Shown: piece after piece, positions 41,326 through 44,189 of the stretch
How the letters are laid out: each line of letters starts with the position of its first letter
Numbering within the stretch: position 1 is the first letter of the stretch
From: Verrucomicrobiales bacterium
Lineage (GTDB): Bacteria > Verrucomicrobiota > Verrucomicrobiia > Verrucomicrobiales > DEV007
Length of the DNA stretch: 64,000 nucleotides
Reading direction: 5' to 3'
Assembly (NCBI GenBank): GCA_002698785.1
Contig: PAAG01000059.1
Coordinates: forward strand, 372,001-436,000
Notes under the pieces: model-generated
What the model was told of the DNA's origin: nothing
Databases searched by the model: none
The model's input: the letters and a program-made list of their open reading frames with translations, nothing else
Position numbers and translations under genes: made by a program

Positions 41326-41352
41326 GAATTGCTGTCGGATTACTTTCGATTG

Positions 41353-43062
41353 ATGACATTTTTTCTGAAATCCTGGCCCTATCTCGCTGCCATACTGAGC
41401 GGTTTTCTGCTCGCCCTTTGCTACCCTCGATTCGACCTGAGTGGGTTCATCTGGATCTGGCAGGCGCCGCTGCTTGCCGGGTTATGGTTCACCGCCCCAC
41501 GAAAGGAGAAAACTCCCCGTTGGCGTCATGGGTTCTTGTTAGGGTATCTGTCAGGTTTCTCTTTTTTCCTGATCAGTTGCTACTGGATGATCCAGGTCCA
41601 CCACGTGGCCGGGACGATCTGGGCAGGCATTGGTGCACTACTTGGGTTCGCGGGTTATCTGGCCGTCTATTTCGGTGCGTTCGGGGCTTTCGCCGCCACA
41701 GTGGGGCGTTGGATTATTCCCCCTTCGACAAAGGACAACCAAAGTCTCTTCGATCAGTCGATTTCCGTGCTTAAGGTGGCCCTCCTCAATGGTGCCGCAT
41801 GGTGCGGGCTGGAATGGTTGCGGGGAATTGTATTTACGGGGTTCGGTTGGAATGGACTGGGCGTTGGACTGAAGGACCAGCTGTTACTTGTCCAGTTCGC
41901 TGACGTGATCGGGATAACAGGATATGGCTTTGTCATGATGTTTTCAGGCATCATCTGCTTTTGTACTCTTGTGAGGCTTGGGCTTGAGGTGCGTCAGCAT
42001 CACCGCATACGGCCTCACCTCGATTTCGCTGTCGGGGTGACTTTAATTATCTTTCTTTTCCTCTACGGGATGCAGAAGGTGAACTTGAAACCCGAAGAGT
42101 CAGTCGACATTCGTGCCAGGGTTCTCCAGCTGAACATCCCCCTGGAAGAGAAGTGGTCGACCGATGTAAAATTGAAGCAGAAGATCATCTTCGACTATCG
42201 CGACCTGACCCGTACATTCGTAGAGACGGCAGAACACGATCTCATTCTATGGCCCGAAACGGCGATTCCCGGCCTCTTCCATTTCCCCTGGGTGCAGACC
42301 TACTTCAACGATCATGTTTTGAAGGGAGACGACTTTTATCTCCTGACAGGTCTCGAAGATGCCAATCTCGAAAACACGGAAATCTACAACACCATCACCC
42401 TGATGAAGGGAGATACGGATTCCTACCAGATGCACCGCAAGGTCCACCTGGTTCCCATTGGTGAATACCTCCCATTTCGACACAGCTTTCCCATCTTTAC
42501 CTGGGTGCTTGGGGGGATCATTCTTGAGGACTTTACCCCAGGAACATCCTTTGAACCCCTCACGATGGAGAAAGACGGGCACGCCATCGACATCGTTCCC
42601 CTGATCTGCTTCGAGGACACTGTCCCGAGACTGACACGGAAGTTCATTCGAAACTCTCCCCAAATCTTCGTCAATGTGACCAACGACGGTTGGTTCTATG
42701 ATAGTGCGCAGCCAACGCAGCACTTTTACAACGCGATTTTTCGCTGCATCGAATTCCGTCGCCCCATGATTCGTGCTGCAAACACAGGGGTGAGCGGATT
42801 TATCGACGAAAGAGGCAGCTTGTACGATAGGCGTGCGGGTGACGGATTCCCGCGAATTCTACAGGATGAAGAAACTGGCTCCACCTACATTCGAGGCTCA
42901 ATGCCTGCGACCGTTCAGGTTGATCTCAATCCACCAACTACGGTTTATGCACAAATCGGCGACTCCTTTTCCATCGCGATGGGATTGCTCGCGCTCGCTT
43001 TCGCAGCGTTTCGGATCGTGCACTACTCGATGACGACCCGGCAGTCCGTGTCTGACGCTTGA
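41353..43062 (+). CDS. lnt: Apolipoprotein N-acyltransferase
   Basis: Lnt N-acylates the N-terminal Cys of lipoproteins using phospholipid and is needed in Gram-negative envelopes. About 569 residues contain an N-terminal block of transmembrane helices (about 1-235) and a nitrilase-like periplasmic domain. The catalytic triad is visible as LILWPETAIP (Glu), MHRKVHLVPIGEYLPF (Lys) and ICFEDTVPRL (Cys), with VNVTNDGWF following. It fits the lipoproteins seen elsewhere in this window. The ATG at 41353 was chosen over a TTG at 41329. The gene ends inside the convergent zincin gene by about 40 nt. Confidence 0.93.
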   Translation: MTFFLKSWPYLAAILSGFLLALCYPRFDLSGFIWIWQAPLLAGLWFTAPRKEKTPRWRHGFLLGYLSGFSFFLISCYWMIQVHHVAGTIWAGIGALLGFAGYLAVYFGAFGAFAATVGRWIIPPSTKDNQSLFDQSISVLKVALLNGAAWCGLEWLRGIVFTGFGWNGLGVGLKDQLLLVQFADVIGITGYGFVMMFSGIICFCTLVRLGLEVRQHHRIRPHLDFAVGVTLIIFLFLYGMQKVNLKPEESVDIRARVLQLNIPLEEKWSTDVKLKQKIIFDYRDLTRTFVETAEHDLILWPETAIPGLFHFPWVQTYFNDHVLKGDDFYLLTGLEDANLENTEIYNTITLMKGDTDSYQMHRKVHLVPIGEYLPFRHSFPIFTWVLGGIILEDFTPGTSFEPLTMEKDGHAIDIVPLICFEDTVPRLTRKFIRNSPQIFVNVTNDGWFYDSAQPTQHFYNAIFRCIEFRRPMIRAANTGVSGFIDERGSLYDRRAGDGFPRILQDEETGSTYIRGSMPATVQVDLNPPTTVYAQIGDSFSIAMGLLALAFAAFRIVHYSMTTRQSVSDA

Positions 43063-44189
43063 ATCCAACCGTAGTCGCCGCCGTTTTCGTCAACGATTAC
43101 CCAAACGTGTGATCCGTAGGTTCGTTGGGTAAATTTTCGTCCGGGATCCAGATCTCCATAATGCCGACGGTTCCCGTCATAACCAATCCAGAAAAATGAT
43201 ATGCGTTGCTTCGTTTGGTTCTCCAAGCGCAGTTTTACCGCTGGACCGCTCGCCGACAAAATTGTGTCTCGATCAAATTGAGTCATCGGAGCCAGGGGAA
43301 GTGAGTCGTAATCGTCCCCTCTCTCGATCGCTTCATATGCTGCCACAAGTTCTTCCGACCATTCAAAAGTCGGCGAATCGTTTACGTCGAACCCTGTAAG
43401 GTGCAAAGCCTGTTCGCGATCGGCGGGCTTTTTATAGCGCCATTGACCATCTCCGAGAAACTCCTCAATCAGGGAAGCCAATTCAGGGTCGTGCTCTTTG
43501 AGCTCCTCTCTCGTGTTCACATGATTGTGATCGAAGTCATTCTCGCGGTTGGTGTCGAACCAGGATTGCACTCCTTCCGCCCAGTATTCGGAGGGATTTG
43601 TTCCGGCGTACTTTCCGCGCCACAATCCTTTCAAGGCAGCTCTACCAAATACGAGTTCGAGCCTTTTCTGAAAACCAGGGTCGATGTTCCGAATTCCCAT
43701 TTCGTGAATCACGTGGGCAAACTCATGTACGAAAATGCTCTCCGCTGCGTATGGGTCGCCTCGATATCCCAGCAGATTTTCTTCCCCCACCGAAACAGCA
43801 GGTCGAATCTTCGTCGCGCCCAGGCCACGAGCTCGCCTGTCCCAATAGCTCTTGGGCTCGAGATCGCTGTGCTCTGGAATGTCGGTCGTGTGCTCAGAAG
43901 GAGCCATGATGGCGAGACGAATCTTCTGTTCGGTCATCGCATCCAATAGATCCTGACGATCGCCCAGCATTTTTTCCATCAAGTAGGCTGCCTCGTAGAA
44001 TGCGTAGTCAGAAACTTTCTCCGATGCGACAATGGGAAATCCACGAAAGCTCAGATACTTCTGATAGAATTCTGTATTCAGTTCGAGCCGCTCTTTCTCG
44101 GATTCTGGAATGGAGGTCACTTCTCCTGAAAAGACAGAAGCGGTCAGAGCAAAAAACGCTGCCCCAATGAATGACCTGAGAAAAATCAT
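43023..44189 (-). CDS. Secreted zincin metalloprotease-like protein with C-terminal VHL beta-domain-like module
   Basis: After a signal peptide (about 1-22) the 388-residue protein carries the zinc motif HEFAH at 155-159 in SIFVHEFAHVIHEMG, and a likely third ligand Glu205 in SEYWAEGVQSWF. The C-terminal part (about 317-370) reads LRLENQTKQRISFFWIGYDGN, YGDLDPGRKFTQRTYGSHVWVIVDENG, which matches the VHL beta domain: an N-terminal strand, a Y-D-G turn, a LxPG turn and HxWxxxD. This is a peptidase-like catalytic part with a binding module. The target is unknown. The ATG at 44189 was chosen because it starts the signal peptide; the 3' end overlaps lnt by 40 nt. Confidence 0.82.
   Translation of the reverse strand: MIFLRSFIGAAFFALTASVFSGEVTSIPESEKERLELNTEFYQKYLSFRGFPIVASEKVSDYAFYEAAYLMEKMLGDRQDLLDAMTEQKIRLAIMAPSEHTTDIPEHSDLEPKSYWDRRARGLGATKIRPAVSVGEENLLGYRGDPYAAESIFVHEFAHVIHEMGIRNIDPGFQKRLELVFGRAALKGLWRGKYAGTNPSEYWAEGVQSWFDTNRENDFDHNHVNTREELKEHDPELASLIEEFLGDGQWRYKKPADREQALHLTGFDVNDSPTFEWSEELVAAYEAIERGDDYDSLPLAPMTQFDRDTILSASGPAVKLRLENQTKQRISFFWIGYDGNRRHYGDLDPGRKFTQRTYGSHVWVIVDENGGDYGWIQASDTDCRVVIE

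Follow-up and report, generated by a model that had tools for sequence, protein, structure and literature searches.

A secreted-looking zincin protease with a C-terminal VHL beta domain in a Verrucomicrobiales bacterium and its possible connection with hydroxyproline

The window analysed here is the whole 64,000-nucleotide stretch of DNA from Verrucomicrobiales bacterium (assembly GCA_002698785.1, contig PAAG01000059.1, positions 372,001 to 436,000 of the forward strand), and the gene in question occupies positions 43023-44189 of its minus strand. It codes for a 388-amino-acid (aa) protein combining a zincin protease domain with a C-terminal von Hippel-Lindau (VHL) beta domain. In animals, the VHL beta domain reads hydroxyproline in the oxygen-sensing pathway, and many degrader drugs use it as their handle. 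The explanation to which we give slightly better than even chances is that the protein is a secreted PPEP-like endopeptidase, the VHL domain of which docks on hydroxyproline (Hyp) in peptides or proteins via a five-residue pocket of the pVHL type. It is carried by the domains and their folds, the intact active-site and pocket residues and the linkage of VHL enzymes, with the zincin family itself in two genomes, to apparent hydroxyproline catabolism in relatives. As the domain adjoins hydroxyproline-catabolism genes in relatives, the data suggest that it steers the secreted protease to hydroxyproline-rich proteins. The features are as follows, all on the minus strand.

43023..44189, minus strand: whole gene of the secreted-looking zincin-VHL protein, 388 aa and stop (open reading frame (ORF) listing; orthologues)
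44127..44189, minus strand: signal-peptide-like N-terminus, residues 1-21, with a positive start and a hydrophobic core (read by eye)
43452..44108, minus strand: zincin catalytic domain, residues 28-246, Pro-Pro endopeptidase / M34 fold (VIA-align, profile search)
43713..43727, minus strand: HEFAH zinc-binding motif, residues 155-159, with ligands His155 and His159 and catalytic Glu156 (conservation)
43608..43610, minus strand: Tyr194, counterpart of PPEP-1 Tyr178 (PPEP-1 alignment; invariant in 23/23)
43587..43589, minus strand: Glu201, probably the third ligand of the zinc, matching PPEP-1 Glu185 and PPEP-3 Glu197 (alignment; spacing from PMC12828418)
43026..43265, minus strand: VHL beta domain, residues 309-388 (PF01847; pVHL fold match)
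43101..43190, minus strand: counterparts of the hydroxyproline-pocket residues, W334, Y344, T357, H361 and W363 (gapless alignment, offset 246)

The reading frame starts with ATG at 44189, and its stop codon ends at 43023. The N-termini of the orthologues are likewise hydrophobic, and the protein is presumably secreted.

The VHL domain and its pocket residues

PF01847 is the only Pfam domain matched in the protein (residues 323-370, 23.2 bits against a cut-off of 21, E 7e-5); the protein scored 25.9 bits in the search of the whole genome, and there were no matches in 14 control genomes. A sequence-only reading of the window had proposed a zincin fused to a VHL-like module and had named a hidden Markov model (HMM) search with PF01847 and structure prediction as checks; the former gave the above-cut-off score and the latter a pVHL fold rather than a different beta-sandwich, and the fusion is thus borne out. 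The structure was modelled with AlphaFold2 from four sequences (mean pLDDT 63.2), with most blocks of residues 21-100 and 151-250 at 72-92 and one block at 58, low confidence for residues 101-130 (35-45), a linker mostly below 50, and a VHL domain at 60-81 for residues 321-388 and at 49 for residues 311-320. According to VIA-align, model residues 309-388 superimpose on pVHL residues 63-152 with Z 11.4 and a root mean square deviation (rmsd) of 1.7 over 80 aligned residues sharing 19% identity, and all 50 matches listed by Foldseek are entries of pVHL complexes (best E 7.7e-6).

In human pVHL the hydroxyproline pocket is lined by W88, Y98, S111, H115 and W117, with H115 contacting the Hyp hydroxyl. 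The gapless alignment pairs these with W334, Y344, T357, H361 and W363 of the window protein, keeping all five pocket positions, so that the two domains have the same fold and the same pocket residues save for the conservative change of Ser111 to T357. They differ in their surroundings: pVHL possesses an alpha domain with the elongin C box, whereas the last residue of the window protein, 388, aligns to pVHL 152, and the protein would recruit no elongin C or ubiquitin ligase parts because no alpha domain follows. Unlike pVHL, the window domain is fused to a secreted-looking protease, and its hydroxyproline binding is putative.

A VHL beta domain has been reported from sequence in a hypothetical protein of Litorilituus and discussed as a tumour-suppressor analogue (PMC9002001); its text contains neither “peptidase” nor “metallo”, and it mentions hydroxyproline once, for HIF. 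Neither a zincin-VHL fusion nor a link between VHL and hydroxyproline operons is described in the open PMC titles and beginnings of abstracts listed, a scope outside which subscription papers and preprints lie, and in the papers found there the bacterial VHL copies have no tested function.

The conservation of the pocket was surveyed in 59 bacterial VHL domains from the loci fetched by then (loci are numbered with L and genomes with G below). The class labels were assigned by script: the L095 row labelled as a zincin with an N-terminal VHL domain (N-VHL) belongs to a sulfatase-containing ORF, the S9-type row L089, cut at a contig end, went into the “other” class, and a fragment of 41 aa was left out. 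The 30 VHL domains of S9 peptidases all have W88, Y98 and H115, with S111 represented by T in 27 and S in three and W117 by W in 29 and F in one. All ten domains of the zincins with C-terminal VHL (C-VHL) have W88, H115 and W117 and a T at S111, and Y98 is Y in seven and F in three. In the pooled set of 40, W88 and H115 are present in 40 each, W117 in 39 (F in one) and Y98 in 37 (F in three), and S111 is T in 37 and S in three. With kinship ignored, the five pocket columns rank 1, 2, 4, 5 and 6 of 77 by entropy in these 40 domains, and among 200,000 sets of five columns drawn at random, not one was as conserved. Five S9-VHL domains seen later (L140, L142, L143, L152, L158) were inspected by eye, H115 and W117 being kept in 5/5 and Y98 in 4/5. 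In the survey itself, the three “other” domains keep all five pocket residues (T for S).

Pocket residues are also kept in short stand-alone secreted-looking VHL proteins (L040/L120, 127 aa; L056/L159, 132 aa). A 1663-aa frame in L059/L160 contains four or five VHL-like repeats, the His115 position being kept only in the first.

The zincin domain and its active site

Residues 28-246 of the model match PPEP-3 (9g5j) in VIA-align with Z 13.6 and rmsd 3.6 over 189 aligned residues, and PPEP-1, PPEP-2 and the lethal factor catalytic domain rank just below among the matches listed. The window zincin has in common with PPEP-1, PPEP-2 and PPEP-3 (M34) the zincin fold, which is also that of the anthrax lethal factor catalytic domain, the HExxH motif, a Tyr with a Glu at Tyr+7, and the Trp position of the S1 pocket; the identity is 15-19% among the matches listed, and the window protein differs from the PPEPs in the added linker and VHL domain.

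A profile of 23 aligned zincin proteins, the window protein included, matches PPEP-1 with E 0.004. Pfam ATLF (PF07737) was matched by 19/23 of these at E<=1 (best 1.2e-5); the window protein itself gave no ATLF match at E<=1, and its strict membership of that family was set aside. Peptidase_M90 matches were obtained for 20/23 at E<=1 (best 1.4e-4) and are tentatively read as the common zincin motif, since the fold matches listed are to PPEPs and lethal factor. An NCBIfam match to TIGR04172 was ignored as weak (E 0.016, 14.2 bits against a cut-off of 450).

The HEFAH motif pointed out in the sequence-only reading stands, with H155, E156 and H159, as well as Y194, E201 and E205, each invariant in 23/23 aligned proteins. 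The M34/PPEP layout of HExxH, Tyr and Glu at Tyr+7 is represented by H155, E156, H159, Y194 and E201. In the alignment to the PPEP-1 E184A chain (6r54), Y194 falls on Tyr178 and E201 on Glu185, and in PPEP-3 the corresponding tyrosine is Tyr190, with Glu197 as the third ligand of the zinc (PMC12828418). Since the Tyr+7 spacing is the same in all three, the third zinc ligand is likely Glu201, and Glu205, which had been considered plausible for this role, is less likely, though both residues are invariant.

Trp116 falls on PPEP-1 Trp110, which corresponds to Trp120 of the S1 proline pocket of PPEP-3, according to numbering that we worked out from the E184A chain (6r54) and PMC12828418. The position is W in 20/23 aligned proteins and in 9/9 C-VHL ones. 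A Pro-type cleavage specificity is only suggested by this, because the PPEP-1 alignment is weak in score (E 0.25) and the model is also poor around Trp116.

VHL proteins and hydroxyproline gene clusters in relatives

The genome that the window comes from (7.0 Mb, 60 contigs) has a second PF01847 protein, which is sulfatase-like with a C-terminal VHL domain. Some part of the window protein was matched in 39/56 genomes, with full-length zincin orthologues bearing the C-terminal VHL domain in seven relatives besides the window's own genome (52-62% identity); two more, of 48% identity, are in the nearest named relatives, the Verrucomicrobiota metagenome-assembled genomes of L033 and L034, and the zincin genes of L012 and L027 end at contig ends before the VHL part. 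PF01847 itself is present in 39/56 relatives and in 21/387 genomes of a phylum sample, so that the description of the domain as rare in bacteria suits the phylum sample but not the lineage of the window.

We sorted the 56 PF01847 places in the relatives ourselves: 22 are S9 peptidases (one split over two frames in G034 and one cut in G013), 14 sulfatases (including a 916-aa ORF of G026), seven C-VHL zincins, seven CAP proteins (six by Pfam and L135 by eye) and six others. In this 916-aa ORF, VHL and sulfatase domains are combined with a stretch resembling ATLF (19.7 bits, below the cut-off of 27.4). In the zincin tree, in which the L061 and L062 zincins appear a second time (as L013 and L011) and the cut gene L021 bears the label N-VHL, the C-VHL and N-VHL forms fall into separate groups with support of 100/99; the zincin and VHL domains therefore combine in two arrangements.

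Several arrangements stand out. In the large ORFs L153:2927-5674 (G026) and L095:4951-8811 (G025), sulfatase and VHL domains share a single chain with a weak zincin/ATLF-like stretch. The VHL domain is N-terminal in the CAP (PR-1/SCP) proteins of L135, L137, L139, L144, L149, L150 and L155, several of which have a linker that is Pro-rich or has Asn/Pro repeats by eye. A partial second VHL-domain ORF (L034:5218-5523) directly follows the zincin-VHL gene there, and two S9 genes with no VHL detected (L132:5438-8310, L133:4810-8208) adjoin divergent zincins of the same family.

The search for PF05544, the family of proline racemases and 4-hydroxyproline epimerases, covered the same 56 relatives and 387 phylum genomes and gave 27 rows in 22 of 56 relatives and matches in 50 of 387 phylum genomes, 42 over the cut-off. 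PF01847 lies within 10 kb of PF05544 at 11/56 places in the relatives, counted over all 27 rows, against about 0.2 expected by chance (a rough estimate), and at 2/14 further places of the phylum sample (G286, G382). The 13 co-located places fall in families f1, f2, f3, f4 and f9, and their stretches contain a DHDPS-like gene in 13/13 and a DAO gene in 11/13. Among the relatives, PF01847 is found in 21/22 PF05544-positive versus 18/34 negative genomes (Fisher p 5e-4, kinship ignored). The corresponding values in the phylum sample are 6/39 versus 15/348 (p 0.012, kinship ignored), a tally that uses 39 PF05544 genomes and counts as negative the 11/50 with short or weak matches, two of which (G061, G099) have PF01847.

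HMMs derived from members of the clusters (eleven models, thresholds set by us) served to read the first 20 epimerase neighbourhoods, which were picked from the 27 rows partly for VHL proximity; the SULF model was built from sulfatases including the VHL domain, and its matches can overlap VHL. Members of L061, L063, L065 and L106 were named by Pfam and NCBIfam. No VHL match was found in 9/20 of these neighbourhoods (L070, L072-L076, L078-L080). L061 and L062 have the gene order AraC-PAS regulator, DHDPS, a zincin of the window family, epimerase, VHL-S9 peptidase and DAO, with the zincin and epimerase ORFs overlapping by 4 bp in L061; among PDB entries, the S9 peptidase of L061 is nearest to DPP-IV (E 8.6e-45). 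L063 contains DHDPS, aminopeptidase P, epimerase, VHL-S9, a POT peptide transporter and DAO. Epimerase, DHDPS, DAO and VHL-S9 are present in L064, L066, L067, L069 and L077 and, in other families, in L106 and L110; L068 and L089 contain epimerase, DHDPS and VHL-S9 or the cut end thereof, and in L065 and L071 the epimerase is accompanied by a VHL-sulfatase, DHDPS and DAO. PF05544, DAO and DHDPS-like genes thus occur together in L061-L067, L069, L071, L077, L106 and L110, the latter two being of kinds that have roles in the trans-4-hydroxyproline catabolic pathway. All five PF05544 proteins compared with NCBIfam score best as 4-hydroxyproline epimerase (364-422 bits versus 148-209 for proline racemase, an excess of 165-237 bits), none of the five reaching the curated epimerase cut-off of 442-450 bits. 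Judging from gene content, these VHL-enzyme loci in the relatives are apparent 4-hydroxyproline catabolic clusters.

The sulfatase-type PF01847 places in the relatives have a DHDPS-like neighbour in 6/14 cases (L065, L095, L138, L145, L146, L151), with an epimerase too in L065 and none in the fetched stretches of the other five; L071, found only with our own model, has both genes. In L095 an M24 peptidase follows, and the zincin of its genome scores best against that of the window after the window protein itself. The C-terminal-VHL sulfatases of L065:3803-8841 and L071:8168-13104, directly behind the epimerase gene, have Ala at H115, and their ligand may be a substituted (sulfated?) hydroxyproline. 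AraC regulators with a PAS domain, an identity Pfam-checked only in L061, stand divergent from hydroxyproline/VHL clusters in L061:5635-6372, L065:2988-3764, L067:4625-5389 and L138:3985-4725 and are possible hydroxyproline sensors.

Proposed function and alternative explanations

Under the explanation set out at the beginning, the protein would be a secreted zinc metallo-endopeptidase with the M34/ATLF-like Pro-Pro endopeptidase fold and active-site layout in its catalytic domain and a C-terminal VHL beta domain acting as a substrate-docking module, with hydroxyproline bound in the same five-residue pocket as in pVHL. Guided by the VHL domain, the enzyme would reach a Hyp-rich extracellular protein, such as an algal wall glycoprotein or animal matrix, and the zincin would cut within or near a Pro/Hyp-rich stretch. 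In relatives, further VHL enzymes (DPP-IV-like peptidase, sulfatase) would complete the degradation and the 4-hydroxyproline catabolic cluster would consume the product, and species lacking the cluster could still profit from the peptides. The zincin-VHL protein would then be one of several VHL enzymes of the lineage attacking a Hyp-rich, perhaps sulfated, glycoprotein. Secretion, hydroxyproline binding, Pro/Hyp-directed cleavage and the substrate are the parts of this scheme that we infer.

By analogy, there is a precedent, with a different domain, for a secreted gluzincin that owes its preference for a Hyp-rich glycoprotein to an accessory domain. Svx of Pectobacterium is an extensin peptidase, described in PMC13164431 as a secreted gluzincin whose cleavage of such a glycoprotein depends on a second domain; that domain is acyltransferase-like and reported to recognise arabinan chains. 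Likened by this description, Svx and the window protein both consist of a gluzincin and an accessory domain, the latter being different.

A number of observations weigh against the hydroxyproline explanation. There is no PF05544 match in the window's genome (95.9% completeness), its only match to the cluster DAO is 30% identical, and no hydroxyproline-cluster model has a match near the window gene. The cluster genes are likewise absent near C-VHL zincins in 7/7 stretches of 7-17 kb (L081-L087, eleven models), and PF05544 is not enriched in the hosts of these zincins, as it is found in 4/10 of their genomes, two of the ten having genes cut before the VHL part, versus 8/23 others (33 same-genus genomes, hand count). 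Both zincins within clusters (L061, L062) are without VHL, and 17/19 VHL-S9 loci of the phylum sample (L101-L119), some from short contigs, have no epimerase in the stretch. The VHL domain is found on CAP proteins, on its own and on sulfatases as well, and the pocket is not kept everywhere: the nine rows with the N-VHL zincin label have N (eight) or V (one) at Y98 and F at W117 in 9/9, H115 being kept in 9/9; the seven surveyed sulfatase domains have Ala at H115 in five and keep it in two, with Y98 kept in six, and sulfatase domains seen later have Ala in 7/7 by eye. In the Planctomycetota relative L035 the VHL-like tail is degenerate (14.9 bits), and the W88, H115 and W117 positions are lost. 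The losses in other VHL classes suggest that H115, at least, is dispensable for the fold, and a conserved pocket is no proof of binding.

Much of this would also be expected if the VHL fold were kept as a generic accessory beta-sandwich serving stability, surface attachment or the binding of an unmodified peptide or sugar, in an ordinary secreted gluzincin for protein nutrition; the short stand-alone VHL proteins, the sulfatases and CAP proteins, the altered pockets and the window genome without PF05544 all fit such a module. We nevertheless hold it to be rather unlikely, given that the pocket columns are among the most conserved on S9 peptidases and C-VHL zincins and that VHL enzymes co-locate with PF05544 genes. 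A ligand other than free-hydroxyl Hyp, namely a proline-rich peptide or glycosylated or sulfated hydroxyproline, with the zincin and the VHL-sulfatases attacking the same sulfated Hyp-rich algal glycoproteins, would account for the mostly Ala H115 of the sulfatases, for their DHDPS-like neighbours at six of 14 places and the epimerases of L065 and L071, and for the ORF joining VHL, sulfatase and a weak ATLF-like stretch. It is improbable, however, as the T and H that would contact a free hydroxyl are kept in 10/10 C-VHL zincins, the window's included, and the other eight sulfatase-type places have no DHDPS match in the fetched stretch, some stretches being cut short. A chance resemblance with no VHL domain at all could be imagined from the sequence-only PDB matches to pVHL (E ~0.3), but with PF01847 above its cut-off, an independent fold match at Z 11.4 and a gapless alignment of five pocket residues its probability is close to nil, and a chance motif match was ruled out on the PF01847 score and the pVHL fold match.

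The idea of the sequence-only reading that the protease recognises hydroxyproline therefore gains support from the conserved pocket and the clusters in relatives, binding itself being still a matter of inference and PF05544 missing from the protein's own genome. Together, the conserved pocket and the VHL enzymes in apparent hydroxyproline clusters give a concrete hypothesis testable by one binding assay, hint at a way in which these bacteria could degrade wall and matrix proteins rich in Hyp, and offer a route to the origin of the animal reader domain. A broader and more tentative proposal, to which we give somewhat less than even chances, is that the bacterial VHL beta domain is a general hydroxyproline reader of secreted enzymes wired into hydroxyproline operons, the window protein being a PPEP-like endopeptidase that it targets; if so, the reader of animal oxygen sensing would have the same ligand as a more ancient module for feeding outside the cell.

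In the window, the zincin-VHL gene converges with an ORF on the plus strand (41329-43062, lnt-like, named by eye), and their 3' ends overlap by 40 bp (43023-43062).

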